Below, in pieces: positions 1,380-61,995 of a stretch of DNA of 64,000 nucleotides. The notes under the pieces were generated by a model, which did not search any database, was not told the origin of the DNA, and was given only the letters and a program-made list of their open reading frames with translations. The stretch lies in the NCBI GenBank assembly GCA_013115135.1, contig JABANP010000118.1:1-64000 (forward strand), read 5' to 3'. Positions within the stretch are counted from its first letter, which is position 1; the number at the start of each line of letters is the position of its first letter. This stretch comes from Perkinsus olseni. Its lineage: Eukaryota; Perkinsozoa; Perkinsida; Perkinsidae. The translations under genes were made by a program, and so were the position numbers.

Positions 1380-4300
1380 ATAGCTGTGTCGAAGCTGCTG
1401 GATACACAGGAATGCGATGGATCAAGGTCGCCCCCCAGACTGGAGGAGACACTGACTGGGGGCTCCAGTCAGTCACTGGTGAGGTTGCGCGTTGATGCAA
1501 ATGTCGCGCCGAGAAGCGGAAGTTCCGCTTCGGAACTGTAGCATAGTCGGGACTCCCGACCAGCCTCCCGACTCGGGAGGCCGTATGCGCGAGGTGCTAG
1601 TACAACCCCGACACCCACCGAGGAAGAATCTCCGGGAAGGCCTCGTGAAGGCCGTGCCTACTACCGAAGCAGCACGAGTCAGTGGCCGGAGAAGAGGGTA
1701 GGAGAAACTTCCCCGTGGGAAGCGACACCAGCCGCCGGAAGGTTGTAGAGAGAAGGAAGCAGAACCCGGACACGTCTGAGGCTCGGACTCCGAGCAACAC
1801 CTGATGCGCGATGAACTGAATGCCGGGTTGGTGCACCGGCAGCGCAGATCCTGCGCCGCAGAATGGTGGCTGCTCGGGTAGCGGCAGTGCAGTACCCACA
1901 AGCGGTAATCTGCCCGCCCTGTACCGTCGGGTGAGCAGTGCTCACTGAGCACGAAACGGAGTCTACGCGGGAAGCGTCACCAGACTCTGGTGACCAGAGT
2001 GGAGGACAAAAACCATGAGCGAAGTAGACGACTCAAAACGACATGAACGGGCACGTAGCTCCACGAACTGTGTGACACAAGAGCTGGTGGCTGTGGACCA
2101 CAGTCTGTGGTATGAGACAAAGGAGTTGTCACAAATCACGCGTATAAAGTGGACACACAAATGGTCGCGAGTCGCCACTGGAGATAACGACACCGAAGCT
2201 CATGACGCAACTAGCGTCACGTAACGAGAGAATGAGTCCGGCGGACGCAGTCCGCGCAGGCGCTACAAACGACAGAGTAGCCGCGGTGGCTGAACAGTGC
2301 AGCGGAGCCTGGAGTTACTCCAGGAGTTCACCTCCTCGACCGCCTTCGCGACTCGCGGGCGGGCGGGAACCCAGCGGGAGCCTACCTCTGGCTCTGAGGC
2401 TGAGAGCGAATGAGTAAGCCGTTCCGCTAGTCTGCAAGAGCAGGACACTATCAGTGGAAGCTTCCATTGAGCAGGACGCCATCATGCACAGGATGAAGTC
2501 CGTCCACCCAGGTGCCATGGTGCAGAGCAGTGAGTCATCCCTAAGCTGGGAGCCCTGACCCGTGCAAGGTGCAGTGGGGCCAACATGGCCGGGCCAATTG
2601 CGTCAGGCGATCCGAACCACTGCCGGGCAACGGACTGGGGTAGCGCGGAAAGGACCGAGTCGGTCCGACCGACGCGGTGTGCAGTGACTGCCGCAGGTAC
2701 TCGAAGCGAGCGAACAGCCCATCGCGGAAACCTGCGCTGTCCACACTGCGGAACACACAGGGACCAACTCTGGGGTAGGCACAGCGTGGACTTGCAAAGC
2801 TGCAAACCCAAGGTCCATGCGAACTGCGCGAAGGACGAACCCAAGAGACTTGAGGAAACAGAGCCCGGTCAACCCTTGGTCCGCACGAAGATAGCGGGAA
2901 AGCAGACCGGGCAGTGCCGGATATGTGCCGGTGCAGCCAATGCGGCAGAAGGGTAGGGTAACCCTACTAGGGTAATGTTTGCCAGGCGCGGAGGGTGTAC
3001 AGTGCGCGGGTCGTCGTGACGTGACTCGGAACCGTGAATCCGGAGATGTCCTAGTATCGACCCCGGATCCACCCGGGTGTCGATCGGGCGGACCGCCCGA
3101 AGTAAGAGTACGCGACGAGGGCGAGGCGGCCTGTCACAGGAGCAAGACACAAGGAGCCTCGAGACCTCTAGGGGGCAGGTCCTCGAGAACCTCAGATCCA
3201 CGTGAGGCCCGTGACGTGACCACTTGGGCGGTCCCAGAGCAGAAGAAATGCAAGACAGAGAGCCAGATTATGGCGTACGAGCTGGACGATGGTAGGTACT
3301 GATCCTCTCAGGGTAAGGAAGCAGACTCATCGCGACGCAGAAGCGGTAACGGCGAAGGGGAGCCGAGGAGCAGGCCAGCTAGTAGCCACGAATCGGATAG
3401 AGGGTGCCACCCACTAGCCCACTGGGAGGGGTCGGGGACAAGATAGCGGCAAAGCCGCTGAAGGTATACGTGAGTAGAGTAACAAGCGGAGCTAATGCGG
3501 CCGATGCCCCCTCGAAGGGGAACCCAAGACCGCAAGAGAGGAAGGATGTGCCACGAAAGGCGTAGAGGCGTGTACTAAGGTGGTACTATGAACCCCCGAG
3601 CCTGGGGGCCCCGGGAAGGAGCAGTCCCTCTAAGAGGGAACTTCCCTCAGGAAGCAACTAGGCCGAAGCAGACGTGTAGTAGTGGAGTAAGCAGGGAAGG
3701 AGAGAACCACGGCTTGGCGGGATCCCCGCCGAGAAACCGAGCAGCCGATAAGGGGCGCAAGGCTAAGCGAGGGAACCCGGGAACCGCAAGTCCGGAAGGC
3801 GGGAAGCGTCCGCCGGGAACGTCGGGGCGAAGAGGGAGGCGGCGCCGCAGCCGACGGCAACCGCTGCTATGGCGGATGTGAACCGCGTAGTCTGCCAGAT
3901 GTGAAAGACTCCCACAGCCTGTGGGAGGCTCTCACAGCCTGTGGGCCACAGGGAGGATATCGCGGTGGACCACAACGGCACGTTGTCGCACGGGTAGAGT
4001 CGGAAGCGAACCCGGCTGACAAACCCCCCCGAGGTGAGGGTGTAGGCCGGCGATGGAAAAAAAAGGTTGTGTTCCATCTGCAGTCGTGCACCCGTGAGGC
4101 ACTGAACCGGCGGGCCTGTCGGTACAGGTGGTGGTCAGCTGGGAAGTTGCAGGAGAAGTTCTCCTGGACAACAGACTATAACACGGCGCCAAGGAAGTTC
4201 CCACAATGCGCAGAGAGTGTTGGCACAACACTGGGAAAGTTGGGATCTGGCGAGTCACAGAGACCCGTAGCATGAGATACGGCGCCGCCGTGACGGCGGT

Positions 4301-5040
4301 CCAAGCCTCGAGGTAGTCGAGTCGAGTACAGACGGAGGCGCCAAGAAACAAGCAGCGAGGAGGAGAGCACGGATCGTGCACGAGGGGGAGGGAAATCAGA
4401 GTGGCGCGTGAAAGTGACAGCGGGCCACTGGCAAAGCACGAGGGAGCGGGGTAGTGTGCAAGGCACGACCCCTGGGCAAGGCGCAAGGAGTGACGGGGGC
4501 AGTGGAGCAAGGCGAGACTCAGCCGCAAAGGGAGTCGCAGGCCCAGCTCGGCGCGTTGTAGAAACCGTCTAGGACGCCCTTTCTACGAGAAAGGGAGCAG
4601 AAAGTCTACAGCGCACCCGACAACAGAGTGGCCGACACCAACTCGGCAGGTGAAGAAGGAGTCAGCCGCCTCGTCGGACGTGAACGGCGTAGTCGGGCGG
4701 TTGTGGGAATACGTTGCCGTGAACCACATCGCGATGCATGTCTCCCGAGTAGCCTCAGAAGCAAACCCAGCGGACAAGCCGTCCCGAGGCAAAGCTGGGG
4801 AGACACACTGGGAATGAGTGGCGTGTGTACATCCGTGACGCCTAGAGAAGGAGAGAACCCGCGGGGGTCCCCCCCGGGGGGGAAGAGGAGCGCACGCGGG
4901 CCCCAGGAAGTGGAGACAAGCACAGTTTCGTAACGCCTGTGTGTTGAGTCAAGTGGTAACCCGGGGGTAAAGTGCTGCACGGGTGCGTGCATGGGAGCCA
5001 CAGTGGCTCAGCCACTGGCGGGAGGCGGGTAGCACGGCAG
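1380..5040. other. Hairpin-rich interior of the YR element, no supported ORF
   Basis: This GC-rich stretch has only short ORFs without recognisable domains. It is studded with perfect inverted repeats with 3-nt loops. Examples are 1514-1530, 1546-1560, 1564-1580, 1708-1722, 1984-2000, 2241-2255, 2308-2324, 2953-2967, 3084-3100, 3625-3639, 3909-3927, 4150-4166 and 4577-4595. Two stretches (about 3870-4050 and 4670-4800) look like diverged copies of each other. I cannot say whether it encodes structured RNA or a protein too eroded to see. Confidence 0.6.
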
Positions 5041-5305
5041 GAGGGAGGCAGAGTGTGCCAAATGGGAGCGTGAGAGTCCCGAGAGTCGTGAGAGACTGCA
5101 GGTGAGGGAGGTAACACGCCAGGAGGGAGGCAGAGTGTGCCAAAGGGGAGCGTGAGAGTCCCGAGAGCCGTGAGAGACGGCAGGTGAGGGAGAGCCCAAT
5201 GGGAGCGTGGAGAGTCCCGAGAGCCGTGAGAGACGGCAGGTGAGGGAGAGCCCAATGGGAGCGTGAGAGTCCCGAGAGCCGTGAGAGACGGCAGGTGAGG
5301 GGGAG
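5040..5305 (+). repeat. Minisatellite of roughly 57-70 bp units
   Basis: Four imperfect units share GGGAGCGTGAGAGTCCCGAG followed by a GTGAGAGACGGCAGGTGAGG stretch. It lies just inside the right R2 block. Confidence 0.85.
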
Positions 5306-5387
5306 CCCCAAGGAGGAGAGGGCGGCGGAGCAAGGTGAACTCAACCTGGCGGGAGCTGCAAACCGAGCTCGTGTCCGGAGCGACGTA

Positions 5388-5549
5388 GGTCAAAAACATC
5401 GACAGGACACCCGGCACTACCGTGCCAGACGCTGACCTCTCACGATGAACGGCTCGGTGACGTACACCGCCCCGCACGCATACACACGATTGTCTCCTGC
5501 GGCGGACTACCGTGGATTTTCCTTCGACACACGGAGTGTATCGATTACT
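5388..5549 (+). repeat. R2 block, right end of YR element
   Basis: Identical to 179-340 as far as read. Unique AT-richer DNA begins at 5550. Confidence 0.9.
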
Positions 5550-11135: not shown

Positions 11136-11194
<59 letters not shown>

Positions 11195-12670: not shown

Positions 12671-13704
12671 CGACGAGGACAGTTACAAGACGGAGAAATC
12701 GGAATCGGAGCGCAAAAAGCGCTCGCCCGGATATAATCTCTACTACTTATAATAGAAGAACATACATCGTGCGCGAAGAATCGAATTCCCGTCGTATTTT
12801 TTGAAGTTTGATCCCGGTTTTTTTCCATATTGCACAGCTTTACTTCTGCTACCGCATTACTTGGAAACACGTTCCTAACTCTCCCTGCTCCTCGTAATAT
12901 AACTTTCATAGTGTGATCGATTTACGCTGATTAATTGAGTTAAACCGTCACAGAAAAAATGTCCGAGTGATTTTTTTACAAAGGATTATGCTGCTCAATA
13001 TCTTCCATCGCTAACAGATTCTACATGTTCGCGTTTGTCTCTGTGCAGAGAGTTTGCCGTACTTCCCGGAAAGCAGGACTGTGCGTAGACACTTCCCAGG
13101 TTCGGTATGGTGTGATGTGGACATAGTTATTGCCCTTCACAGATGTGCGCCGATGTACCAGGTGTTAAAACGTCGCGAAATGTTATTTCCGTTCAGAACC
13201 ATATCTCTCCCGCTGATTGGGTTTGCCCAAGCATACGAACTAAACCTACTCTCAAAACTCCTCTACACCTATAGTGAGAAGTAAGACTTACGCTTTAGGG
13301 CAGATGCGAATACAAATACAGCCTCTTACTAATATGCGCCGATTTACTCCGTGTTACAACGTCACGAGATGCTATTACGCGATTTCGCTTGTAGGCATTT
13401 TTCCTGTTCTTGTTCAAATCAACGGTCCCACGGTCGAGCGGCTCAAGTTGAGCCCATTCCACTTGTGGCAACGCCATCATATCACGCTACCCGTATTATG
13501 AGCTTTCCAATGGAGACGAGCGTCGCTCGTCGAGCGAGTTCGTACCCGGAAAAGTTGAGGGAAGTAACTGGGTGGGCGGTTATCGCGTTGGTGTCACACG
13601 CGAGGGGTCAGGAGTGCCGCCTAGGAGTGGAGTGGTCGATAATCCCTCTTGTCTACTGGGAGTGATGGAAGCCCTGGGATCACTCTTCCTTCCATGCCGA
13701 CGGG

Positions 13705-14214: not shown

Positions 14215-16856
14215 GGTTGAATACCTTGACTAGAGGTGAAGAGATCGAGCTACGCATGTGAACTTTCTTCCCAGACATTGGTAGCACACGCTTTCAATCG
14301 TGCAATCGTCGGACTAGGGAAATCTTTCTACTTTGTCGTTCGCCATTGTAATTTACGCTCCATTGTTGGGCACACAAGTAACATGATGTTAGTGTCGACT
14401 CCACACTGAGTATCGGCGGAATGCGGCTTCGGCTTCGGCTTCGGCAACTATCTCCGCTGTACCGTGCTCGAAGTTCATAATTATATTCTCTTCGATCCCG
14501 CGGTGAGTAAAGTTTCATTCACCCGGAATCCGGGTTCCGGACGTAAACTACATAGAAGTTCAAAGCGGTAAGTGCATGGGCGTATCATCAGTGTCATCTC
14601 TCATCCGAAACAGCTGTCCAGACTGGGAGTTTGGTAGGGCATCTTCGAGGGACAGGTTGGTTGCCGAAAGAGAACAGTTCTTCGAGCCTACTGTTGCAGT
14701 GCAACAGTTGCACTACTGAAGCTTGGTAGTAGTACCTCAGATGCAAGTCCATGTGATGCATGTTTGGACAGGAGGTCTGAGATATCGTAGCACAATTCCC
14801 GTTGAGTGAAGGGTAGCAGGATTTTCAGGCACTATCAGGGCCGGCGGCCCTGGGCCGCCCGGGAGAGGAGGATATCTGAATTCGGGTGGAACTGGTAATA
14901 CTTTCATGGCGATCCAAATGCGGCCGTGTGGCCGACGGCCACGCTGACGACCACTGCCAGCGTAGCATATGTTACGCAGTGTAATTTACACTCTGCCGGA
15001 GGCTCCGACTCGGAGCTGTTATATCGGATGGCAAAATGGCAGTTTACAACCGGTAGAATCGTCCTGCTACAAGCTCACGTGGAATCACACACGTCTCCGG
15101 CCAGTCTGAATCGTGTGAATTACGTCTACTAGGCTCCGAGCTTCAAGCTCGGGAGTTGCAATGGTTGAACGCAAGAAAAGGCCTGAGGATGCTTCGGGTG
15201 GAATTTCACTACATATGGTGATCGGCCGAACTCGTTAAGTGCTAGCTTAGCATACTCCTCTGATTGGTAAGCTCTAATAGAGAGATTTTGTAGGATCTGC
15301 AGATATTATTGCAGAGGACTTAAGAGCGACGAACCTCTCGAAAGCCAATGCCCAGGATAGAAGTTTGTGGGAGAGGAGAATTAATGCCCTGAGAGGCAAG
15401 TGAGAAAAAAACGCAGCCCAGTGCTGGTCTCCTGTGCTGAGCTGCTCGACCTGAGTACCCCGACCTTACAAACAGCCAACTCCCTGCCGGTTGTTGGTCT
15501 CTCGCCTGGCCGATAACGGCCCAGAGCGAGAGAGAGAGGGACAGATCGCTAAGAAGCAAGGTATAGCGCTGTTGCGACATCTGATAGGAGGTCTATGCGG
15601 GCCCCTGCGAAGAAAGCCCGCCCAACGGGCGGGCTACCTACCGTGTACATGCACAAGGTAAGATCGCCCATCACCCCATTGGATGCGCATAAGCTGCTCC
15701 ATGAGGTCTTCCGATGTGGCTCCTCCAAGCGGTTTGGACTTCCTCCACCACTTCCTCGGACTACGGAGTATTTTACACTCGCTCAGCCTGATTCGTCTCC
15801 AACGCATTTCAATTTTATTCATTGGACCCTGGTGTTTATCTATGATAGATAATCTATCTCTCTTTTTGAGTGCTATTTTTGCGGCCTCCGATACCAATCT
15901 CCTTCTAATGAAATCACGACTTGTGCTACACTCTCGTGAGTCTCGTGTACGGAGAACCCGACGCATATGATATAAGTTGTATATATGCCTTATTGGCCAA
16001 ATCCGATGATGATGATGATGATGTGGCAATCCGACCGATTGCGGTAATTTTTATCGATACCTAAACCCTTCGCTTCCTCCAGTTATTTCAGGAAAGCCGG
16101 CGAGTATGTCTTACACCTCTCGATTTTGATCCAGTTATTCTGCCTTCAAGTACTACAATCTTCTACATACCTCCTACTACAGCAGATGTACCAATCATTC
16201 TCCTCACCTCATCATTTCTCTCGCAGCCTTTTACTACACGTGCTACCATTGCCTCTGCTACTACTCTACTCTAAATGCTCGCCTTCAAAAAGACGAAAGT
16301 TGACTGTCGAATCTATAATATAGTCATTCCCAGATCTCTTTTTTCATCGACACCAACATTCATCCCCCAACTGGAGATTCAGTTGGAGACTCCGATCTCC
16401 ATCTCTATGTACCCGTTTCTTCATACGCACTATCAACTTCTGAAACCTATCCTCGCTACTCTGTAACGACCCTTGTGCTAACCTAACTTCTATCAAATAC
16501 TCAACTACCTAGGACGTACATTACTTTTGATTCTCTTACAAGCTGCATATACTCCGAGCGTGAGCGAACCATAGAACACGTCCGAGATAACGCTAGATTG
16601 ATACTGTTTCCCCCACTTGTGAGAAGTGCAGGTACAAGTGAGCTCCTAATGAATCCTAGCTGTTCCCCGAGCGCAGCGAGGGACGTGGTCCCTCTGACTA
16701 AGAGCTAGAGAACCCCGGAGCGGAGCGACGGGATCTGCTAGTAGATCATCAACATTATCATAGTCATCATTATTAGCATCGTGCTGCTGCTGTTGGTACC
16801 TCGTTGTTGGGCAGCTTGGTGTTGTTGTTAGTCTTTGTTATTATCAGTCCCCTTAG

Positions 16857-32094: not shown

Positions 32095-33392
32095 TCAGCC
32101 ATGGTCGACATCCGACAGAATAAGTTTGATATCGCGACCGTGCGTACTCACTTCATGACCCGACACATCGGCCTTCGTGATGAGCACATTTGACTTACCT
32201 GACGAATGATGATCGCTGTCTACCGTCGGAAGTTTAGCTTGGCCAACGGAGACGGACAGCGGACCAGCACTCGCGTGCCTGTAGGGATGACTTGATTGGG
32301 AAGTGGGTCGACAACACACCAATCGACATAGTCGCAGCCCTGACGACACTGTCGTGGCACATGCATGCCCATATTCTATGGGCCATAGAGGCGGGAAAGG
32401 AACAGACTGGCGAATATGGACTGATACCACCGCGCTTGGTGACATCCCACGAGATGAATGAGATCGCAGAGAGTGGTGTAGGACATGTCCTTGGCATCAT
32501 GGTGGGTACGGAGATGCTCATTCAAGAACCTGTGGACTCTCCCGATTTTCCTATTGGATGGCGAACATCCTCGGGGAGTGAGGTGATGAATGACCCCACG
32601 ACTCAATGAGGTCGGCCATGGCCAAACTCGAGTATTGGGTACCGTTGTCAGTGGAGCATTAAAGGGAAAACGTGAAAGGTATGTACAAAAGATATTAGCA
32701 GCGAGCAGACATCTTGAGAGTTTGGTGGACGTTGAGTAGGACGCACTAGTAAGAAGTTCGAGTAGCTGTTGATGATAGAAGTGAGGTCAAAGCGAGCAGT
32801 GCCGTCCACGGGCGCCAAGTAGAGACCTGCAATGGCAAAATGTATGCGAACGAATGGGGACGGGATCCGGGAAGGTGGCGGGGAGCGGTGAAAGGTTGAC
32901 GATCTCCCGGAAAGCCCTTCCCCCTGAAAAATGCTTCGCAATGGGAGAATTCAATCGCGGACGCAAGTCCCGGTGCTTCAGTGTATTCACGGCATTGAGA
33001 CAGCATGGCAGCATGTCCTTCATGATCATGTACTTCTGACAGAAAGTCCCCGATGAGGTGAGGAGGCAGGAGGATTTTCCGTTCCGGAGGGGAAATTGTT
33101 GCAGCCAAGTACGAAGATCACGGCTCCGAGTGCTGACAGACGTAGTACTGGGGGCCTGAATGGCTACCTGGCCGGAGTTGTCAACGGCTCCAGGAGTAGC
33201 ATATTCTTGAACAAGTCCAAGAATCTTCCGAGACAACGGTTGCAGCAGTCGTGATGGAACATCGGCGAGATTTTCCGTAGTGGGTACGTGAACCACGGTC
33301 AGCGTGATATGGTAATTGCGGCAGATGTCGTGAATCAACTGGATTCGGCTCTCAGCAGCATGGCGGAACAGGAAGAGTGAAAACTGGTACAC
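32095..33392 (-). pseudogene. Ty3-like pol relic: RNase H end and integrase
   Basis: Pieces in several frames follow retroelement order. RNase H C-terminus: YHITLTVVHVPTTENLADVP (near 33.3 kb). Integrase zinc-binding region: HDHEGHAAM...SAIEFSHC with the last Cys changed (about 33.05-32.95). Integrase core: FDLTSIINSYSNFLLVRPTQ, then STDNGTQYSSLAMADLIESW with the second catalytic Asp (about 32.64). Frameshifts and stops separate them, so it is dead. Neither LTR was found. Confidence 0.6.
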
Positions 33393-36659: not shown

Positions 36660-38667
36660 AACTCATCGGTACTACACCAACGCTCCCGTTGACGTGCAGC
36701 AAAACTGCGACGAACTTGTCGCGGCCTTTGTCACTGAGGGCAAGCTTGCGCACGTCCCCGACGACGCCTCGGGGGATTACCCCTGGGCGGTTACAACCAC
36801 CTACTATCCCATTCAACGGCCCCGCCTTCGGCCCATCTTCCCGTGCCTCCAGTTGAACCGCTTACTGAAACAGTTCGGGAAGCTTGCGTTTCGGCAGATC
36901 AAGCTCGAACAGCTCTATTATATGTTCCGCTCTGTCCCGCACATCGTTTGTCTCGACCTTCAAGATGCTTTTATGCATCTTTTTACGGGTCCTGTCTTGC
37001 AGAAGTTGCTAACAATCCGCATTCCCAACACCAACAAGTGGTACTATGCGTGTCGCTGTATATATGGTTTATCCTTATCGCCAGCTATCCTCGAAACTGC
37101 TGTGCAGTACTAACTGACCAAACACTGCACGGGGTTAGTTCGGCATGGTGTCAACCTTGCGCAGCGCCCTGCTGAGCCCACCACGTCCGCCTCCGAGTCG
37201 GACTCCGACTCCCTTATACAAGTTCTGCATCTCCTCAACGCTGTTGAGGAGAACCCTGTCACGGTTTTCACCCACGATGTGTCTGCGTACGGTGACGATT
37301 CTGCCCTGACCTCTACTGAGGTCATTAGCTATATGGGTGACATCACGCTCCTTTTTCCTGCATGTCTTGTTGATCTCATACCGCAGCTCATCGATTTACT
37401 CACCGAGCATGCTGCGCGGTATACTCTGTACCTGAAGGCCGTGAAGATTGTCATTGTTCATGAGGTTCCCCGCATTAAGACCCTTGGTTTTACTGTGCTC
37501 ACCAACGGCCAATCTATCACCATCAACAGCGACGCTTGGGAGGAACTGTGCACTTGGTCATGGGGCGATGCGCCTTCTTTCCGCAAACTTCATTCCTATC
37601 TAGATCGGATCCCTACCAACTACGAGGACCTCTTATCCGACCACATCACTCCCCTAAATCACAGTCTCCAATCGCTCGCGAGCCGCTTCCGCGAGGATCT
37701 CTGCCAAGCGCAGAGTCTTCCGCGTCACTCTAAAAAGTCTTGGGACTTGCCTCTTCCGTCGGCCTTGTTGGCACTGGTCACTCAATTCCATGCTTACCTC
37801 ACCTCCGTCTCATTGCCCAGTATTCCACGGTTACGTCCTCACGAAAACCTGGAATTGTACTGCGACGCTTCGTCCTACATGATTGCTTTCGTGCTCGCGG
37901 CCCGGGATGATCCGTCTCAGGTGTTCTTACGGCGCCAAATTCTTCTCCGTGATTTGCGAAATGAGACCATTCATATTTCTGCGAAGGAGCTTCTCAGTGT
38001 TTTACACGCTAGCGCCCTTATTCGCTCCATCTCTCTCTACACTCTACGCAATTTCAATTTGCGTATTCGTACTGACAATCGCACTACTGAGAAAATTTTG
38101 AACACACGTCATGTTTCCAACAGTCCTCAGCAACCCTATTATCTGGCAATACTTAACCAGCTGACGTTGTTGGGTGTGCCGGATAGATATCGGGCTGTGT
38201 TCGTTCCCACTGAATCTAATATTGCCGATTCGTTGACTCGTCATCCACTACTTGAGGAACACATAAAGTTGCATTGGAATTTAGCTGAAGCTGACATTGT
38301 CGATCCGTTTGGAGTTAGTCAGGTCCACGACGAGCACACCTGCCCAGACCCTTCTCCTCAAGACCTCGGGTTGATGGCTAAACGCTTGGCTCCTGACGAT
38401 TTTCCACGAGCTGACTCGGTTGGTTCTCGTGTCAAACAGCGTCGCACTCAAGGCTTGAGTCTCAAGCACAACGCGGTCAACAACCTTCTCATCAAGATCC
38501 TTCTCCGTCATTTCCGCCTCGTGTGGTACCTACCCCACCCAGCTCTACCGGTCCTCTACGTCCCGCACAAGTTCAAGGTCCTTCGCACCCACAGCATGAT
38601 GAACGACCCCCTCTCCCACGGCTCAAGACCACACCTTGCAACGCTCAGATCCCTCTTCTGCTGCTGA
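36450..38667 (+). pseudogene. Reverse transcriptase and RNase H of retrotransposon A
   Basis: RT: PHIVCLDLQDAFMHLF (first catalytic Asp), WYYACRCIYGLSLSPAI, an in-frame TAA at 37111-37113, then VSAYGDDSAL with YGDD at 37288-37299 where Ty3 elements normally have YxDD with Val, Ile or Leu. RNase H: LYCDASSYMIAFVL, ISAKELLSVLHA, LRIRTDNRTTEKIL and VPTESNIADSLTRHP carry the four acidic or His positions. Frame is lost near 38.5-38.65 kb before integrase. Confidence 0.7.
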
Positions 38668-39231
38668 GACCTCTGTCGCACAAGTGTCACCGGTACGACC
38701 ACCTGGTGTCTCCCTTGACTCTCTCACGTCGCAACACCTTCGAGCTAAGATCCTTCGCCATTTGGACGATTTACACCCAGATGCTAGTGGAGTTTATCAC
38801 ATACCAGATAGTCCCGACCTGTGGAATGCTCTGGTCCTGTCCTATCATCTGACAGCCCATTCTGGTACGTATGCTATCGAAGACTACCTACGCCGTTTCG
38901 CATGGCCCGGTAAACCTACTCTAGTTCGTGACCTACTCCGGGCATGCGACCTCCGGGGAACCTCCATTCATACATCGCTGTTTCATACATTGTAGGTTTC
39001 GTCCACGATTGTTTCGTCCATGGTAGGGTTCAGCCTGCTTGTTTCGTCCATGTTACTTCTGTCCATCCTCTTTCATACACACCTCTTCCGTCCACGGGTC
39101 TTACGTACATGATTCTTTCATCCACGCCGTTTCATCCAATCATGCTCTAACTCCGCTTCTTTCGTCCAGGGCTTTTCGTACAAGCCTTTCGTACACGTGA
39201 GTTTCGTCCGCGCTATGTCTCAGAGTAGCGC

Positions 39232-39252
39232 GCCGGCGGCTGCGCCGCCGGC
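39232..39252. repeat. Perfect palindrome with 3-nt loop in element E copy 1
   Basis: GCCGGCGGC-TGC-GCCGCCGGC. The other copy of the element lacks it (reads GCGCGGCTCC across the site). Confidence 0.9.
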
Positions 39253-39284
39253 TCCACCAGTGCTACCACTGTCATCTGCCCCTA

Positions 39285-39352
39285 CTCAGATTCGAACCTG
39301 GGGCCATCGTCATGCAAGCCGGGAGCTCTACCGATTCCGCTATTACCATCAC
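39285..39352 (-). other. tRNA-like segment in element E copy 1
   Basis: On the minus strand it reads TAGCGGAATCGGTAGAGC (A-box like) and GGTTCGAATC (B-box like) with a TGCAT loop between. Stems are imperfect, so this is a tRNA-derived (SINE-like) piece or an internal pol III promoter, not a functional tRNA. Copy 2 has the same at about 46500-46570. Confidence 0.45.
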
Positions 39353-39429
39353 CTACTACGTCCTAAGAATCTCACCGCCGCCTCTCCTGGTGAGTCACCA
39401 GTGGTGACGATCTAGCACCCCCACATCAG

Positions 39430-40255
39430 GGTAGGTATGCGGATCCTGATCCATGGATCTGTGCGATGATCCGAAAACACTATTGATCCGGCTCCATGAA
39501 CCAGATCACACCAAGATCCGAAAAGTCTGATCCAGATCCCGTAATAACGATTCTGATCCGTGATTCTTGATCCTGAACCTTGATGCATGAGCCGGAATCT
39601 TGATCCACGATCCTGATACGCGATTCGTGATCCAGATCACGCGTGATCCAGATTTTTGATTCTGATCCTTGATCCGTGAGGCAAATTCGTGATCCATGAT
39701 CCGTGGATCGCGGATCTGAGAAATTCTCGGCTACGTTGAGAAATTTCGGTGATCCATGATCCACTAGCTCAGTGGATCAAAGTAGGTTATCCGAATCATT
39801 CAAAGGTACGAGTGCATGATGCGAAAATCGTCTCACGCACAGAATCATTCTGCTTTACCGTGTTACAGAGGCCCGATCCTGTTACGGCGCCATTCCTTAG
39901 CGGTACCCTCAAGTTGATCTGATCCTTGATCTCCCTGGGTCTTAGAACAGTAATCTAAATTGTCAACGGTGAGGATAGATACTAGGTCGTCCAATTATCC
40001 AACAGACGACCTAACCTACCGGGCTGGCGTCGACTCCCTCCGCTTAGTCATAAACAAGTATTCTGATCCTCAAGTATAAGATCCACGTGCGATCTGATCC
40101 ATGGGTAGTGATTCGGATTCGTGGATCACCCACTTGATCGTGACAAACGGTACTCGAGACAAAACTCAGGAAAATAGTGGAAAGAATCAAGACCTGATCC
40201 GTTCGTCTGATTTTTTTCTAAAGATCAGCCATGGATCAGGATCCGCATACCTACC
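39430..40255. mobile_element. 826-bp terminal-inverted-repeat element inside element E copy 1
   Basis: The termini are perfect 27-bp inverted repeats (39430-39456 and 40229-40255) beginning GGTAGGTATG. The flanking CAG is duplicated (39427-39429 and 40256-40258). The unoccupied site, a single CAG, is seen in element E copy 2 at 46644-46646. The interior is rich in GATCC/GATC-containing motifs (TGATCCxTGAT) and has no transposase. Confidence 0.9.
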
Positions 40256-41756
40256 CAGGTTGTCTCTGTGGTGATCCCAGTGCCTAGAGGCTCCAAACAT
40301 GAATGGAGCCAAGTTGAATAGGTTGGGTATCGCATGGGCGGTACTTTGTCGGAATTCAGTAGTCTCACAGGTGAGTAGGTTAGCAGCTCATGCTCGTATT
40401 CCCGTGGACGTGGGTTCAATTCCTCCGATAAACATTTGCGTGTCGTCAGTTTGATATGTACGAACCACTATTGGACGAATGAATTTTTTTCGAAAAGATC
40501 GTGGTTGAATAGATCAAAATGAGCATATCTTTGGATCAACCGCCCATGGACGAAATAATTGTGTACGAAACCGGTTATGGATGAAAAAATCGTGACCGAA
40601 ACATACACCTTTTCGAAGTACGAAAAGATCATGAATGAACCGAAATTTGTACGAAACAATCTTGGATCGAAGCTGCAGTGGACCAATCGATCATGGACGA
40701 ATCGCGGTACACCCGCGACCTCTGCCAGAAGCACAAGGTGCAGCCTCATGATAAAGCCCTCAAGGACTTGCCAAAGGAACCTTGGTTACCCCCCTACCAT
40801 TCCATACTGTTAGTTTGGATACCGTTGGCAATTACGCTACTGACGATACAGGTCACAAACGTTGCTATGTTACTTTGTTGGTTGACAAGCTGACATGGTA
40901 CATCTTGGTTGAGCCCACTATGGCTCCACCCTCAGCCGCTACTGTCCTCCCTCTCCTCCAACGTTTGCATCATGATTATGGGGTACAGCCTCTCTCTTTC
41001 CTCTCTGACAACGGCAGCATCTACGTCAAAACTGCGACCGACCTGTCACTTCAGCAACAGTGCTCTGTCACTCAAGCTAACACACCGACGGCTTTCCATC
41101 CTGATGCCCGCTGGCACTTCATAGGAGTACACGCTTCTGCAAACAATGGACGAGCCGAAAGCACCTTTCGTGACTTCAGCACGCTGCTCAAAATTTTAGT
41201 GGACGGCTATGGCCATACATTCGACACTTTCTCCGACTCTGATTGGCTTACTGTGACAGGTGAAGTGGCCTATCTGCTCAATGGACGTGTCCGTCAACCC
41301 CTACGCCTATCGCCGGCTGATGTGGTCTTCACCTTCCCACGTGCGGATCCGTTACTTGGCCACGATCGTGACATTAAATCTGCTACAGATCTACAACAAT
41401 GGCGTGATGGTCGATTGTCACAGTTAAAGCGCTTTTTTAACCAGGTGCTCAAAGAAACTACTCCTCAGACCATCGAGACGGGCGATGAAGCTTATCTTCG
41501 CACTGATTTCCGCTCTACTGCGGAGAAGCTACCAAAATACACTGGTCCTTACCGCGTTGTTTCACACGAAGGTCCTAACCGGTGGCGTGTGTGCGATCCC
41601 CGTGACCCCTCCTCTACTACGATTCACGACGCGAGGAATCTCAAGAAGCGCTACACCATTGACATCAATCTCCTGAATTCATCTGACTCTGATTCTGCCT
41701 CTGATTCAGACTCTGCTGAGACACTTGACCTCGCTGGCCCTGTCACGGGTTTGTAA

Positions 41757-43239: not shown

Positions 43240-43920
43240 ATCTTCAAGAATGGGTGTATTACGATCCTTACACCGAAAACTCGTACACTATCGCTTCTTA
43301 CACGGCTCGTACACTGAATACTCGTTCACTCATTGGATTCATACATCATCATTTCGTACACTTGAGACTCGTACACGTAATACTCGTACTCATGATACTT
43401 GTACATATAATACTCGTTCACACGTGAATCTCATACACTAGCAACTCGTAAATTGCAACTAGTAAACACTAGTAAATTTTTTAGGGAAGTCGCGGAGCGG
43501 CTCCGCGACTTGCCTAAAAAATTTTCCCAGGGTGTACAAAATGACGGTGTACGAGTTGAAAGTGGGTGTGTGTATGAAATGACGGTATACGAGCATTATG
43601 TGTACAAGTGTTTTGTGTACGAGTATTATGTGTACGAGTGTTTTGCCTACGAGTTTTACATGTACGAGTTTTCTGTGTATGAGTTTTCCGTGTACGAGTC
43701 TTCGATATACGGGTATTTGGTGTACGAGTCGAAGGTGTACGAGTGTTCGAGACATGAGTCGGAAATGTACGAGTTTTCGGTGTACGAGTCGTGAACATCC
43801 CGTATCCACAGATACAGTGACAAGTCGTACACTATCCAGCCGTACACTGACCATTCATACAGTATTCAGCGGAACAAGCTTTATTCGTACAGTGTTATTC
43901 GGTACAGCTACCTCCTTACG
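43240..43920. mobile_element. Foldback element F1 built from CTCGTACAC/GTGTACGAG motifs
   Basis: Left of a central palindrome (43474-43525) the plus strand repeats CTCGTACAC-like units (43265-43440). To the right it repeats the inverse, GTGTACGAG-like units (43545-43795). Arms of about 200-250 bp could pair imperfectly. No ORF of its own is credible; apparent Tyr/Val/Thr-rich ORFs are translations of the repeats. Boundaries are approximate. Confidence 0.6.
43474..43525. repeat. Central palindrome of F1
   Basis: The stem includes GTCGCGGAG-CGG-CTCCGCGAC and A/T-rich outer arms. One internal mismatch (G versus C partner) is present. The same palindrome occurs at 45332-45391. Confidence 0.85.
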
Positions 43921-45331
43921 AAAATCGCGGCGAATTTGTGAAGGTGTTAGTTAGATAGCTAAAATTCCTTAAGGGAGATTAGAACTTACGCCGCATACGT
44001 CATAAACCACTGTCTTAACCAACTTGCCTGCAAACCCATTTCCAATCCTGAAGGCAAAAGGTTCAATGCCCACGGGTAGATATTAATGCCCGGGGTATCC
44101 TCGGCGCGGATGCCTCCAGCTCGTGACATCTATCGATGAGAAGGGCTCACACTCAAGGCCACAGGCCTAGAGGACCCAGAGGATGGTGCGCTGCACACCT
44201 GGTAACTGACAAAAATTAGTCGGTTTAATGGACTCTGGTGTTACGCGGACGCGAAATTCGCGTAGTGGTAGGACCGCCTGTTATCAAGTAGATCACCCGG
44301 GATCGATCCTAAGAGTAAGCTAGCAGGGAAGGAAAGGCCAGAGTCGTCAAGCCGGGGAAAGTCGCGCGCGGAGCGCGGGGGCAATTTTTTAAACACTATT
44401 TTTGCTGAAGTTAATTCATTAACAGACGTAAAATGCGTCAGAGTGTAGCCCCGAATCGTCGTGAAAGTGCGAAGCACTAATCTCGCACAACTGCTCTGTC
44501 TCCCTGTGTTGCGCTGACGCTATGAGGAAGTGCGAGTAGTCCAACGTAGCTAATGAGAAGCTGGTTAGCATCAAAGTGCGGTATCTTCATAGCTCAGTAT
44601 CTCACGTCTAGAGCCATCTTGGTTCAAGTATCAGTTGACGGTATACGTCTCTCTCCCCAATTTTTTTCTTTTTCCTCCTGCGGGAAGGCTGGTAGTGCAT
44701 GGTCCGAGGGGACCTGGTAGCCGGAGCAGGTGCCGAGGCGGCACCCGCGTTCAACAAGGAGTCCCAGGGCGCGTCCTGAGACGCTCTGGGGTAAACCTTG
44801 CCCGAGACGCTCGGCTAGTCAGAGGGCAGCGCGAGCAGCCTCACTCGCACGGTGCGAGTCATCACGATCCCAACGACCGTGGAATGTTCCTCCAAGAGGG
44901 AGTCCCTCTTCGCGGAGGAAGCTAACACAACACGAGAAGCGAGAACAAGAGAGTGCGCTCACAGTGAGAGCCTCTCACTGGGAAGTTCTCAGGACTCCCA
45001 AACCAGGGGTGGTAGAGGCCACGTAGTCGAGGACGATAACGGCCTCACCGGAGGACCAGAGGACCAAGACGCTAAAAAAAAAAAGAGGAACCGTTCCTGA
45101 GGAAGCGCCCCCTAGCGATACTTTGTCGTCGGCCCGAGCGTTTCATAGTAATAAGCACTGGGCGCGCGAGTTGTCACGTTGTGTTCCTTCGCGCAAGATT
45201 CGGGGAGGCTGTCCCCGAAGCGTCCTGAGGTTTTGACCGGTTGATAGTCCGGCACATCGCAGCCTGCGGCTGCGCCTTGCCTTCCTATCAACCTTGCAAA
45301 CTAAGGGGCGCGAGAGCGTGGGCGGAGCCGG
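43921..45331. other. Non-coding, hairpin-rich interval
   Basis: Perfect 3-nt-loop inverted repeats occur at 44729-44745, 44843-44859, 44894-44910 (inside a longer stem 44887-44920) and 44963-44979. An 11-A run is near 45074. Around 44255-44310 there is a weak tRNA-like fold. No gene is supported. Confidence 0.55.
44612..44628 (+). other. Possible spliced-leader relic
   Basis: AGCCATCTTGGTTCAAG differs at one position from the 3' 17 nt of the dinoflagellate/Perkinsus spliced leader as I remember it. A T-rich stretch follows at 44659-44673. It also overlaps a B-box-like sequence, so a tRNA-derived origin is an alternative. Confidence 0.35.
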
Positions 45332-45715
45332 CGCGAAAATTTTTAGGCAAGTCGCGGAGCAGCTCCGCGACTTGCCTAAAAAATTTTCGCGGGGTGTACG
45401 AAATGACGGTGTACGATTTGAAACTGGCCCAGTTTAACCCCAGTTTAACTGGGGTTGTGTACGAAATGAGAGTGTATGAAATGCTGGTATACGAGTTGAA
45501 AGTGTACGACTATTATGTGTACGGGTGTTATATGTACGGGTATTACGTATACGAGCATCATGTATACGAGTTTTATATGTACGAATCTCTCGTGTATGAG
45601 TATTTTGTGTATGACTATTCGGTGTACGAGTATTTCGTGTACGATTAGGAAGTGTATGAGTATTGGAGACATGAGTCGAAAATGTACGACTATTTGGTGT
45701 ACGAAACGTGAACAT
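45332..45715. mobile_element. Half foldback element F2
   Basis: It starts with the 60-bp palindrome shared with F1 (GTCGCGGAG-CAG-CTCCGCGAC core, 45332-45391) and continues with GTGTACGAG-like repeats to about 45715. The left arm expected before 45332 is missing. It carries an extra hairpin at 45436-45456 (AACCCCAGT-TTA-ACTGGGGTT) that F1 lacks. Confidence 0.65.
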
Positions 45716-46161
45716 CCCTGAACTGGAGGGGTTGGTTGACAATAACCGGTGGCGGGATACCACGTCCGTCCTCTTCACGTGGTGGGGTAGTCTGTACTCC
45801 AGCGTTGAAGATGGCGTTCTCACCGTCGTCTCCAATAATGCAGGGTGTTACGTATTTCCTGAAACGCGTCAAAATTTCCATTTCCGAAATTTCCACTGGA
45901 AATTTTCGGAAATTTCAGGAAATAGGCGACAAATGCATTTTCTGGCGCGCGCCCTCACCGGCGCGCGAAAATACCTTATGCGCAGTTTAGTTTCCGATTG
46001 ATTGGGCCAGAGTGGGTAACGTCGATCACTGGTCCCAGTCTCCCATATGGTCTACCGCCTCAACGTGGCGTGGGAGTGACACTCATTCGGAGTAAGCGAA
46101 GCTAGACCGACTATACCGAACTCGACGATGACCCAACGGGTGGTGAGTAACCACTGGTGAC
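45716..46161. other. Non-coding spacer between F2 and element E copy 2
   Basis: Contains a long hairpin near 45880-45925 with core TTTCC-ACT-GGAAA and a GGCGCGCGCC palindrome near 45945. The 8-bp duplication CTGGTGAC (46154-46161) marks the start of element E copy 2. Confidence 0.5.
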
Positions 46162-47105
46162 CGGGGAACCTCCATTCATACATTGCTGTTTCATACATTG
46201 CAGGTTTCGTCCACGTTTGTTTCGTCCATGGTAGGGTTCATCCTGCTTGTTTCGTCCATGTTACTTCCGTACATCCTCATTCATACACACCTCTTTCGTC
46301 CACGGGTCTTGAGTACATGATTCTTTCATCCACGCCGTTTCGTCCAATCATGCTCTAACTCCGCTTCTTTCTTCCAGGGCTTTTCGTACAAGCCTTTCGT
46401 ACACGTGAGTTTCATCCACGCTACTTTTAGACATATGTGACGCCGCGGCGTCACATATGTCTAAAAGTAGCGCGGCTCCACCATCACTATCTACCCTTAC
46501 CCCGATTCGAACCTGGGACCATCGTCATGCAAGCCGGGAGCTCTACCAATTCCGCTATTACCATCACCTACTACGACCTAAGAATCTCACCGCCGTCTCT
46601 ACTGGTGAGTCACCAGTGGTGACGATCTAGCACTCCCCCACATCAGGTTGTCTCTGTGATGATCCCAGTGCCTAGAGGCTCCAAACATGAATGGAGCCAA
46701 GTTGAATAGGTTGGGTATCGCATGGGCGGTACTTTGTCGCAATTCAGAAGGAGTCTTACAGGTGAGTAGGTTAGCAGCTCAAGCTGGTATTCCCGAGGCC
46801 GTGGGTTCATTTCCTTCGATAAACATTTGCGTGTCGTCAGTTTCATATGTACGAACCACTATTGGACGAATGAATTTTTTTCGAAAAGATCGTGGCCGAA
46901 TAGATCATAACGAACATATCTTTGGATCAACCGCCCATGGACGAAATAATCGTGTACGAAACCGGTTATGGATGAAAAAATCGTGGCCGAAACATACACT
47001 TTTTCGATGTACGAAAAGATCATGAATGAACCGAAATTGGTACGAAACAATCTTGGATCGAAGCTGCAGTGGACCAAACGATCATGGACGAATCGCGGTA
47101 CACCC
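46162..47105. mobile_element. Non-autonomous element E, copy 2 (8-bp TSD), uninterrupted
   Basis: It is flanked by CTGGTGAC at 46154-46161 and 47106-47113. The ends match copy 1 exactly in type (CGGGGAACC...GGTACACCC) and the body aligns along its length except for the 826-bp nested element and the palindromes. It contains the two facing tRNA-like segments. Confidence 0.88.
46419..46472. repeat. Perfect 54-bp palindrome in element E copy 2
   Basis: Each 27-nt half is the exact reverse complement of the other (ends CGCTACTTTTAGAC..., centre GACGCCGCGGCGTC). Copy 1 lacks this palindrome at the aligned position. Confidence 0.93.
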
Positions 47106-47113
47106 CTGGTGAC

Positions 47114-47841
47114 TGAGTGGCGGAAAAATTCCCTCCTCCCCTCCCTTTCATGATGAAAGTTTCATCAATCCATGCCCCGTTCTCGTCTCTACGCTATCGA
47201 TTCGGCGAATCGGATTCGCTGCTACGATTTCTCCCATGGCTGTGGTACTGTCCGAGTTGTGTATTGGCTACATTGGTGCTCGACGATATGGCCTGATACT
47301 GGTAGTCGATTATACTGTAGTTGTGGATTAGTCGCTTTATTGAATACAGCGTTGAATACAGTGTATTCCCTCGTTACCCTCGCCACTTTTTCTTTGTTTT
47401 AGCGTTTCGATCATGTTTCACCGTGTGTTCTTCATACTTTGGAGTTGAGGGATGAGTCATCCCTCAGCATCATCATCCCCCCCAACAATCCTAGTGTAGT
47501 GAAATTGAGCACTCTCCGGCGGACACAACGTACAGACCCACTTCGACCTATCCCGCACGGCGTCGTGAACTTCTCGGAAATAAAAATACACCACCGACGC
47601 TATCTGGTCCCGAACGCTTCACCATGAGAGCTGTATCAGACTCTGAAAATCAAAGTAAAAACACGAGGCACTGACGGGAAAGGCAATGATCGGATAATCT
47701 GATTCGGATTCCCCAAACGCAGCCCCGACTCCGCCTGGCGGAGGTGGAGTTGATGCGTTATAGCTTTGGCGCGCGCCCAACTGATCGATATATTCGAGAG
47801 CGGGCCATGAAGCGTGTACCGTGTAACGGAGGGAATTTCCC
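47114..47841. other. Non-coding or unresolved
   Basis: A Cys-containing ORF of 76 codons (47172-47402, +) has no recognised domain. A 3-nt-loop hairpin is at 47208-47222 and another short one near 47729-47743. Nothing else is supported. Confidence 0.4.
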
Positions 47842-52727: not shown

Positions 52728-54063
52728 CTCGACACTTGTAGCCGAAGTGAGGCAAAGAAAGAATAATCTCCAATGTTTGGCCTGCTTTTTACGCTTAGCA
52801 AATCGATCGCGTCACATTGTGCGGGCCAACTCGCACGTGTGAAATTGCGCCACTAGTCACAGACATGAGACGATATAATAGCCCTTGCTAGGGGCGATGA
52901 AACAACAAAGACGATGGAAAAGGATTGGTACGTAGAACGTAGGGACCCTAGCTCAATGAACGCAGTCGGTACTGTGCCCACACAAGTAAACTAGGTCATA
53001 ACTGAAGGGCGCACGAGGAGACAGAAAAATAGATAATTGGCGTGACATTGGGCGGCGAGGCTAGCACATCGGGCATCTGGGGCCCGTACTCTTAGGGTCG
53101 CAGATCATCCAGACCGCAATCTTAGTCGTAGTTCCCTCGTCGTCAGCGCACTCGTCAGTGACTCGACCCCAATGTGGCATGTTGTCCACTTCGCTACCAG
53201 TCGTGTTGTAAGTTGTAGTAGTCGTCGGAAGAGGGCCAGTCTTCTTGGACTCGTAGTCAGCACGTAGTAGCTTGGGGGTAGAGTTGCGACGACGTTGGAG
53301 GATCATAGACGTCATAAGGAGAACCAATCCCGGTAGAATGCGCGGTCGCTGCGCGGGGTGTGGCGATAGACGTTGCAGGAACAGCGCAAGACGTCATCGC
53401 CTGTGGAGAAAAGGACCGCGGGTTGGCTCAGCCGGAATCCCCTTACACGTAGAGTTCTCACTAACGTAGGAACCCAACATCACAGTCGTAGCTAAATCTA
53501 TTGGATTGCTACTCAGTTGCACTAGTGAGACCACTACAGATAGACCAAGTGCTAGTCGAACGAGATCACAACGTAAGAGCAACTGCTCCTAGTGACTAGG
53601 ACCTAGTCGTAAGCGAAATTCGCTTAGCGAAGCACGTTCACAGTCAAAGAGAGAGCACGTAGCAACAGTAGCTACAGTCGTCTAAACTCAATCTTCAGCT
53701 AATCTCTAACTTTGTCTCTCGTAGCTCGTAGCTCTGTCTTCTTCTTCGACGCGCCCGAAACGGTCAGTCGTTTCGATGCCAGAAGATACGTTGCGAAGAT
53801 GCGTCGTCATCTTGGGCACCTCAGTCGTCTTGGCCTTCCTTCTCGTTATCCCGCGGCTACGCGCATCGCCCCGCGCTGTCTCCTGGGACAGCGCCTTGGA
53901 TTTTGGTCAGGTGCCTTGGATTTTGGTCAGGTGCCTTGGATTTTGGTCAGGTGCCTTGGACTTTGTACTTTGCCCGACTTCCGTGAGTATTCCCTTCCAC
54001 CCGCACGTGTACCGCGGGCCAAATATCCAGTGGTATGATTTTGCTAGTTGAGCCTCTCCTATC
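52728..54063. other. Unresolved interval with a 20-bp tandem repeat
   Basis: It may contain the 5' leader of retrotransposon B. A minus-strand ORF of about 62 codons (53582-53394) begins with a signal-peptide-like LVRLALGLSVVVSLVQLSSN but has no ATG, and another (53327-53061) ends GPRCPMC; a small secreted protein is possible but unproven. At 53893-53960 the unit GCCTTGGATTTTGGTCAGGT repeats 3.4 times. Confidence 0.4.
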
Positions 54064-61126: not shown

Positions 61127-61207
61127 CCCCACTTCCATGGCCGGTGCATCTCCTAAAGGCTTGTGTTGGTGACGAGCCGCGTCTCAATCGCTCAGCCTTA
61201 CTGCACT

Positions 61208-61893
61208 ATGCCACCGCCACCAGCCGAGAAGAAGTCCACGCTCAGCCTCACAAGGGAGAGGCTACTAGCGAAATTCGGGAAGTCCAAAGAAAGCGTCATC
61301 GGTAGGCGTAGAACCAATGTCGTTGAGAAATCTCAAGAACATTCAAGATTTGCTAGAGTGCATTACCACTGTTTGAGGCTGCGGTTCGCTCATACGGACG
61401 CACAAGGGTCTACTCGTCGCTCCTGAGCTGTTGATTGATCGAAGGATTCCACTCTGGACGTGCTGAGCACTCTTCGGGAGACTTGTCACCATGACGGGAG
61501 GCGGGAGAATTGAAATGACAATGTCATGGTTATTGAGGGGACCTGTATGTCAGACCCCGTTCTTAAGTCTTACAACGGCAGAGCGATAGACATGACCGAG
61601 TATCGTAAAGTGAGCCCACCTTACGCTACTTCAACATAGCAGCGATGACAATACCTTCAGATAGAAAACTTGGTGGCCAACACCATAAGGGATGCTCGAA
61701 GGAAGGGCGGCAGAAATGCAACCGCTGATGCCACTGCAGCTGCTAGTAGGGCTGAATACGTAGATTTTGGTATGACTCTCGCCATGTTGCAGAGGTAACA
61801 ACAGCATCAGACGTGAGTTCTCGTAACGACCCTCGATTGAAGCCAGTGGTGGAGCTTCCGAAGCAACGGCCATTTCATCTCCAGAAAGTGCAG
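61208..61893 (+). CDS. Unrecognised multi-exon protein D
   Basis: It starts 82 bp after the syntaxin stop: MPPPPAEKKSTLSLTRERLL + AKFGKSKESVIG up to a GTAGGC donor at 61302. Later exon-like blocks are LRNLKNIQDLLECITTV (61330), DSTLDVLSTLRETCHHD (61440), SDPVLKSYNGRAIDMTEYRK (61550), NLVANTIRDARRKGGRNATA and YVDFGMTLAMLQR (61665-61796, followed by GTAACA), and RLKPVVELPKQRPFHLQKV (61838-61893, followed by GTGAGC). Mostly helical. It could belong to the same gene as the next entry. Confidence 0.4.
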
Positions 61894-61950
61894 GTGAGCG
61901 GCGGCGGCGGCGGCTGCGACGCGATGCGGCTCAGTCCGCGTAGCCATGCT

Positions 61951-61995
61951 CCTTTCCTTTCTGGCGTTACATCATGTAACGCCGGAAAGGAAAGG
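61951..61995. repeat. 45-bp hairpin upstream of coiled-coil protein start
   Basis: A 21-bp stem with one T-G pair and a 3-nt TCA loop (inner stem GGCGTTACA / TGTAACGCC). It lies 8 bp before the ATG at 62004. Confidence 0.9.

Follow-up and report, generated by a model that had tools for sequence, protein, structure and literature searches.

The window, i.e. the whole stretch of 64,000 nucleotides (64 kb) from Perkinsus olseni analysed here, contains a copy of a repeat near its start, two gene-rich stretches (6300-13300 and 16500-31700, together 22.2 of 64 kb), resident transposons and numerous short inverted repeats. A cytochrome c1 exon aligns near-identically to PDB chain 9fq7_3C, probably of a Perkinsus structure, over 55 residues. 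Two of the transposons belong to one family and lie between identical 8-bp target duplications: 38954..40714 (1761 bp), which carries a further, nested insert, apparently with a duplication of 4 bp, is flanked by GCGACCTC at 38946-38953 and 40715-40722, and 46162..47105 (944 bp), which matched at more than 30 further places in the genome, is flanked by CTGGTGAC at 46154-46161 and 47106-47113. End pieces (one 5' end, two 3' ends) and inner palindromes of another transposon family, GGGTGTATnACG...CGTGAACATCCC, occupy 43252..45718; they are nested or broken, and no matching duplication was found for them.

Perfect short inverted repeats, which the original prediction had described as recurrent, are over-represented in the window by comparison with 30 dinucleotide shuffles in 500-bp blocks, where a loop with pairing end bases was scored as the next shorter loop. 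The outstanding class, however, is the odd palindrome with a 1-nt loop and not, as had been claimed, the 3-nt loop. For stems of at least 6 bp, 98 cases were counted in the 64-kb window with loop 1 (17.2 in the shuffles, sd 4.4), 28 with loop 3 (13.8, sd 3.3), 28 with loop 4 (13.6), 22 with loop 5 (15.5), 11 with loop 2 (14.7) and 24 with loop 0 (17.5), a mild excess over the shuffles being seen at many loop lengths. Stems of at least 7 bp numbered 76 versus 4.3 for loop 1, 14 versus 3.4 for loop 3 and 13 versus 3.5 for loop 4, and those of at least 8 bp 33 versus 1.0 for 1-nt centres and 4 versus 1.2 for even palindromes. By the comparison that the prediction itself had proposed, we thus rejected the 3-nt loop as standout class: its excess, about twofold, holds against the shuffles and against loops 2 and 5, but it equals that of loop 4 and is far below that of loop 1. 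Among the 20 fully located items of the prediction, 14, listed with the loops AGT, ACT, TGA, TTA, GAC, GCC, GTC, TCA and CGG, gain another base pair and so have a 1-nt centre; the 3-nt loop is genuine in five only (2241, 4577, 15615, 16678 and 44729), and the one at 47208-47222 is no palindrome, although one is present at 47205-47219. Of the four items described as cores of longer stems, 43474 and 45332 proved to be a palindrome internal to a transposon family and 61951 a longer hairpin.

The odd palindromes often overlap pairwise, with centres 7 apart, to form one 22-mer that consists of T1-T7, the reverse complement of T1-T8 and T2-T8, its two palindrome centres, 1 nt each, being the complements of T8 and T1. 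Hence, the observation that sequences differ at constant geometry was correct, the geometry being this fixed 22-nt composite, and so was the step from a constant geometry to a single generating process. With a unit of k = 8 the window contains 14 exact composites, 25 with up to one, 39 with up to two and 60 with up to three mismatches, as compared to 0, 0, 0.4 and 2.7 in 10 shuffles. At other unit lengths the signal is much lower; unit 7 is also above the shuffles (1, 9 and 25 versus 0, 0.1 and 3.0 with zero, up to one and up to two mismatches), and only 6 of its 25 sites overlap a k = 8 site, which counts against the explanation preferred below, as does an event in locus L045 that fits a 4-bp unit. 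Consistent copied ends with tips 7 apart occur 14 times in the window and with any other distance at most once, and in the fetched loci, counted without shuffle control, 53 distinct sequences have tip distance 7 and at most three any other. Tip distances 1 and 2 are represented by 1 and 3 distinct sequences in the loci and absent from the window, where short footprints do not exceed the chance level (2.0 shuffled cases at distance 1). Nineteen of the 76 one-base-loop stems of at least 7 bp are not located at the tips of any 22-mer with up to four mismatches.

Outside the repeat copy, exact 22-mers lie at 13516..13537 (T = ACGAGCGA), 14692..14713 (TGTTGCAC), 14837..14858 (AGGGCCGC), 15837..15858 (TATCTATC), 38446..38467 (ACTCAAGC), 47145..47166 (CTTTCATC), 47198..47219 (CGATTCGC) and 53587..53608 (TCCTAGTC). 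Two more, both with T = CTGGTGAC, are situated within the two copies of the resident transposon (39387..39408 and 46602..46623) and are read as one event. Composites with one mismatch were found at 1774..1795, 2090..2111, 2953..2974, 3931..3952, 4278..4299, 14995..15016, 32368..32389, 44957..44978 and 53611..53632, in addition to two discussed below. The scarcity in genes that had been noted held in part: in the gene-rich stretches, drawn by eye from open reading frames and Pfam matches, none of the 37 non-overlapping 22-mers with up to two mismatches and two of the 53 with up to three have their start.

Comparison of 21 copies of one repeat within the same genome revealed that at the same site some copies are plain, i.e. 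carry the 8-bp target, and others are footprinted. Exact 22-mers in these copies amount to 95 rows, 21 of which are private in that they have no length-matched sibling at the same anchors. The plain 8-bp target (up to one mismatch) is found in 1 to 20 siblings for 14 of the private 22-mers, and in at least 12 for nine of these; the other seven have no resolved sibling (three) or siblings of different length or sequence (four). The exact footprint 1978..1999 (T = CACCAGAG) occurs in the window copy only, with a plain 8-bp site in 16 of 17 resolved copies, and plain sites are also present opposite 2652..2673 (GGACCGAC; 3 of 19) and opposite 4151..4172 (one mismatch; 3 of 20), while 1515..1536 (one mismatch) faces a plain-length site with base differences in L042 and L043. 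At 1931..1952 (GTGAGCAC) all 21 resolved copies have the 22-mer or a near form, and the length of 4995..5016 (GAGCCACT) is common to 13 of 16. In 24 aligned copies, 18 of the 36 minority insertions (rows; at least 5 nt, at most four carriers, at least eight copies covered) are exactly 14 nt long; they fall at 16 positions, 14 of which yield an exact 22-mer, and the second commonest length is 7 nt (four rows). Minority deletions of at least 5 nt peak likewise at 14 nt (8 of 37) and are read as sites with the 22-mer in the majority, so that they are compatible with either direction between 8 and 22. Two larger differences among the copies were considered as resident elements and dismissed: a block of about 288 bp, present in many siblings between window positions 1547 and 1573, is read as a deletion in the window copy, and a private gain of L041 with an 8-base overlap is duplicated repeat sequence and not a transposon, as its 154 nt match L037 (151 nt, 97%) and a part of the window.

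The inserted 14 nt vary between sites and stem from the 8-bp target at each of them. They thus share no common sequence, as a mini-hairpin mobile element would, and many scars are private to one copy; as the centre is, moreover, 1 nt and no Rfam family matched at gathering score, we assign a practically negligible probability to such an element or to selected RNA hairpins, two ideas of the original prediction, even if the stem-like sequences do lie outside genes. Template switching during replication, i.e. quasipalindrome-type copying, yields local inverted duplications that are unrelated in sequence, and could create short inverted copies of this kind. It would, however, require a double switch at each site and lead to variable tract lengths, and leaves unaccounted for both the peak of the unit length at 8 bp, where the end bases are exact, and that of the insertions at 14 nt, which makes this third idea highly improbable.

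An 8-bp target duplication is indicated by both the peak of the unit scan and six insertions with identical 8-bp flanks, namely the two residents of the window and four insertions in diverged repeat copies (1393 and 844 bp in L052, 505 and 307 bp in L054). The genome encodes hAT transposase domains, with 33 Dimer_Tnp_hAT matches, 32 of them above the cut-off. A frame of 666 amino acids combines Dimer_Tnp_hAT (PF05699) with DUF4371 and had no match among solved structures; for the transposase family C402/C455/C71 no second terminal repeat was found in addition to the one end identified. Terminal inverted repeats of hAT elements begin with CAG-G, and the resident elements start with CAGTG/CAGGG in two families and with (C)GGG in another two. 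The 22-mers predicted from two of the resident duplications each have one exact occurrence in the genome. The flanks of the resident element matched the window alone in the first case and had no established homology in the second, so both occurrences may be unrelated events, and no single site was found in both the transposon-occupied and the footprinted state. In the close repeat copies the insertions of 20-4000 nt included no recognisable resident with an 8-bp duplication, the stretches covered being about 5 kb, so that larger elements could escape. This, together with the many private footprints and the single dominant product, would suit a one-step event without transposon, in which a transposase or nuclease able to form hairpins would cut the 8-bp target and rejoin it in the order target/inverted target/target. 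Yet, both hairpin tips require two copies of the target, as provided by insertion, and residents with 8-bp duplications do exist in the diverged copies and twice in the window, rendering the one-step event quite improbable.

Based on these findings the palindromes are very probably, for the most part, excision footprints of hAT-type cut-and-paste transposons whose ends were joined through the target duplication. We infer the direction from 8 to 22, a hairpin step, deep opening, annealing and the assignment of scars to elements, and propose that hairpin-forming excision merges parts of the earlier ideas of a mini-hairpin element and of templated repair. Insertion would duplicate the 8-bp target, T1-T8. 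Upon excision each flank would receive a nick one base into the duplication and then be sealed as a hairpin, the tip of which would be the complement of T8 on the left or of T1 on the right and would thus give rise to a palindrome of odd length, centred on 1 nt. Opening of the hairpins far from the tip, as suggested by 8-13 nt in the long variants, would bare single strands containing the complement of the entire duplication, through which both ends may anneal before they are trimmed and sealed, with T1-T7, reverse complement of T, T2-T8 as dominant outcome of 22 nt.

A further sign of hairpins, in addition to the 22-mer, is provided by reverse-complement copies of flank beyond the duplication, which are seen at 1546-1579, at 45421-45453 and, as judged by eye, in a variant of L033/L041. 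In 1546..1579 the tips are 19 apart and the copied ends, 20 nt in total, extend beyond the 8-bp target, the site opposite being plain in L032, L037, L038, L039, L042 and L043; in 45421..45453 the tips are 18 apart with copied ends of 8 nt on the left and 11 nt on the right. Such unequal ends would be accounted for if the hairpins of the same transposons were opened independently and joined by plain end joining without annealing through the duplication. This scheme predicts many tip distances, whereas a sharp peak at 7 is observed, and we therefore regard it as unlikely, albeit the least so of the alternatives to joining through the duplication.

Flank hairpins and P nucleotides are known from the coding ends of V(D)J recombination and from Transib, where blunt hairpins would yield even palindromes and where, in Transib, the duplication is 5 bp; here, in contrast, single-base centres go together with a duplication of 8 bp. 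The 8-bp duplication is shared by Ac/Ds, a hAT element. For Ac/Ds excision in plants and in the yeasts S. cerevisiae and C. albicans, hairpins of the flanks are described as leading to palindromic insertions whose centre is the complement of the transposon-adjoining base, and joining as using microhomology (PMC5873905). In C. albicans 28 different products were obtained among 128 clones, with 3 nt as longest palindromic insertion, and in S. cerevisiae 47% of the footprints had arms of at least 3 nt, the maximum being 20 (PMC5873905). The palindromes described here are alike in being probably hairpin-derived and show the 1-nt tip offset of hAT footprints, even palindromes being much less enriched, but the heterogeneous, mostly short copied ends of the studied hAT hosts were not found, as a single 22-nt product dominates. 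Similarly, a report on TcBuster, a hAT element, in human cells describes nucleotides copied from hairpins after excision, the footprints having, unlike those observed here, insertions of a few nt and deletions of up to 50 bp (PMC3499496). For mPing (PIF/Harbinger) the target duplication, 3 bp after a staggered cut, is described as providing homology that makes repair uniform and restores the original site (PMC4561436). Repair via the duplication would be the common element, whereas here a 14-nt insertion is left instead of restoration. Hairpin footprints are thus already known, and the unusual part is the single dominant 22-nt product; none such was found in titles and abstract openings of the literature on hAT or palindromic footprints and Perkinsus, which does not prove its absence.

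We lean slightly towards the further-reaching view that the organism heals transposon hairpins almost deterministically, i.e. that opening at least 8 bases from the tip and annealing of the duplications convert most hAT excisions to the same 22-nt scar, making near-intact scars a genome-wide record of insertions. As excision footprints are varied in the studied hosts, past visits of transposons are hard to recognise there. A dominant 22-nt product identifies itself and would record the target, its age via mutation and the way the host opens and joins hairpins, so that a repair pathway would become testable from genome sequence alone; if this holds true, the near-intact scars (25 with up to one mismatch per 64 kb) would constitute a readable insertion history across the genome. 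The findings further suggest that a repeat family can acquire scars and then propagate them by copying, and they advise caution in that plentiful short palindromes outside genes are not necessarily RNA hairpins or regulatory sites. Finally, the targets show a preference, pyrimidine at position 2 / purine at position 7 accounting for 117 of 176 observations, which come from 88 classes of T and are not all independent.

The palindromes of the window form a real and strong signal, but their loop size was misread in the original prediction, which had proposed 30 or more palindromes with 3-nt loops. When all perfect stems were sorted by loop length, any loop with pairing end bases being counted under the shorter length, the outstanding class was the 1-nt loop, with 98 stems of ≥6 bp versus 17.2 in 30 dinucleotide shuffles, 76 versus 4.3 at ≥7 bp and 33 versus 1.0 at ≥8 bp, even palindromes being far less enriched (4 versus 1.2 at ≥8 bp). 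Loop 3 does exceed the shuffles about twofold (28 versus 13.8), but loop 4 does so equally (28 versus 13.6). Among the 20 palindromes listed with full coordinates, 5 have true 3-nt loops, 14 are 1-nt-centre palindromes whose last pair had been left open, and at 47208-47222 there is no palindrome.

Overlapping 1-nt-centre palindromes of the window are frequently paired, their centres lying exactly 7 nt apart, and such a pair written out comprises T1-T7 of an 8-bp target, the reverse complement of T1-T8, and T2-T8, i.e. 22 nt. Scanning the window with this composite at unit lengths 5 to 13, with 10 shuffles as control, puts unit length 8 foremost, with 14 exact sites and 25, 39 and 60 sites at ≤1, ≤2 and ≤3 mismatches (shuffles: 0, 0, 0.4 and 2.7), while unit length 9 yields 0, 1, 2 and 4. 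Of the 14 exact sites, those at 39387 and 46602 lie inside two copies of one transposon and are read as a single event. A 22-mer tip, i.e. the 1-nt palindrome centre, is the centre of 50/76 1-nt-loop stems of ≥7 bp at ≤3 mismatches and of 57/76 at ≤4. The gene-rich 22.2 kb, whose borders were set by eye, contains the starts of 0 of the 37 non-overlapping sites at ≤2 mismatches and of 2 of the 53 at ≤3. The 22-mers at 46140-46161 and 46602-46623 share 19 of 22 bases in unrelated flanks, and the transposon at the former has the same 8-bp target as the latter, a likeness possibly due to target preference or chance.

Most likely, the palindromes are scars of hAT-type transposon excision followed by unusually uniform, target-templated repair. 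Our confidence in this reading is high, slightly reduced because unit length 7 shows a weaker excess (1, 9 and 25 sites that are exact or have ≤1 or ≤2 mismatches, versus 0, 0.1 and 3.0 in shuffles), 6 of these 25 sites overlapping a unit-length-8 site and 19 not. Excision footprints of this kind are already known; our literature search returned no report of such uniformity, which is no proof of absence. The hAT dimerisation domain has 33 matches in the genome, 32 above the curated cut-off, and one match sits in a 666-aa open frame also matching DUF4371. Transposons still resident between identical 8-bp flanks occupy 38954-40714 and 46162-47105 of the window, and diverged copies of the repeat that includes window positions 1000-5000, in two stretches fetched from the same genome, carry insertions of 1393 bp (identical flanks GCCGCCGG) and 844 bp (identical flanks CCCGTGCA) in L052, and of 505 bp (8-bp flanks GCAGTGAC, ends CAGTGTGTTGGCTAAG) and 307 bp (8-bp flanks ACTGGCAA, ends CAGGGTGGCCCA) in L054. 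Across 88 target classes, position 2 tends to be a pyrimidine and position 7 a purine (117/176), a figure that is approximate because mutation has split some events into more than one class.

The repeat to which positions 1000-5000 belong recurs many times in this 61.5-Mb genome, which allowed two states of one site to be compared in the window and 20 fetched stretches. These copies contain 95 exact 22-mers (counted as rows), for 21 of which no other copy has the same length between the anchors. In 14 of these 21 private cases the plain 8-bp target (≤1 mismatch) is found in 1 to 20 siblings, for nine of them in at least 12; three have no resolved sibling, and the siblings of the other four differ in length or sequence. 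One copy (L035) alone carries a pair of perfect 22-mers, spaced by about 60 bases, the plain sites being present in 12 and 13 siblings. In 24 aligned copies, 18 of 36 minority insertions (≥5 nt, ≤4 carriers, ≥8 copies covered) are exactly 14 nt long, at 16 positions, at 14 of which the result is an exact 22-mer; the second commonest length is 7 nt (4 insertions, all these counts being of rows). Minority deletions likewise peak at 14 nt (8/37) and are read as sites with the 22-mer as majority state. At sites mostly found in the plain state, a 14-nt gain would be the simplest direction, by parsimony and not by observation. As 21 copies hold 796 minority single-base variants, 14-nt events are common without making up the bulk of mutations. 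At the site matching 1546-1581, another copy (L050) has a further palindromic change within an older footprint, apparently the result of a second or later hit on that site.

In the window and the fetched stretches, no site was seen to be both occupied and scarred. Two resident duplications (GCGACCTC and CCCGTGCA) each predict a 22-mer, for which the genome has one exact match apiece; the flanks of the GCGACCTC resident matched the window alone in a genome search, and either 22-mer may mark an event unrelated to its resident. Close copies are rich in footprints, yet among their insertions of 20-4000 nt, in stretches about 5 kb long, none was recognised as a resident element with an 8-bp duplication; those found sit in diverged copies, which leaves a small place for a one-step event as source of the footprints.

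The preferred reading, excision, fits the middle block of the 22-mer, which begins with the complement of T8 and ends with that of T1. Such a block would result if each flank received a nick one base into the duplication and was then closed into a hairpin, the mode of processing reported for Ac/Ds (PMC5873905). Blunt hairpins would be expected to yield even palindromes, a class with far less enrichment. In the 8-bp frame tip distance measures the total length of the copied ends, and the window has 14 sites consistent with copied ends (one mismatch being tolerated at distances of 10 and above) at 7, none at 1 and 2 (2.0 and 1.2 in six shuffles) and at most one elsewhere; the fetched loci, counted without shuffle control, have 53 distinct sequences at 7, one at 1, three at 2 and at most two elsewhere. 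Any two hairpin openings summing to 8 yield an identical 22-mer, and the sum would so often be 8 because the opened ends presumably anneal through the target duplication.

Variants copying flank beyond the duplication are rarer than the 22-mer: 1546-1579 (20 nt copied in all), 45421-45453 (copied ends of 8 and 11 nt) and one in L033/L041, read by eye (about 13 and 13 nt copied, 21 nt between). Their sequences suggest hairpins opened 8-13 nt from the tip. One case, in L045 (~1110-1160), goes against the 8-bp rule: the tips of this hairpin-type footprint, whose copied ends measure about 9 nt, fit a duplication of 4 bp (CAGC), not 8 bp. The window likewise holds a nested element (~39426-40255) that seems to be flanked by a 4-bp duplication.

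Footprints are present in other fetched stretches too, e.g. four exact 22-mers in the 7.0 kb surrounding a transposase (L051). Extrapolated from this one repeat-rich window (14 exact sites in 64 kb), the genome total would be of the order of ten thousand exact sites, if the window is typical. Outside the 22-mer model, a 10-bp odd palindrome lies within a longer imperfect hairpin (61963-61983). The stretch 43252-45718 holds an apparently nested transposon family, which has subterminal repeats of the TGTACGAGT type, 15 bp long, together with an inner palindrome (43487-43511, 45340-45382). A retroelement (35163-41756), broken by the resident at 38954-40714, has gag-like, RNase H and integrase core matches, all under Pfam cut-offs, and a DDE_3 (Tc1-like) transposase fragment at 33916-34302 exceeds its cut-off.
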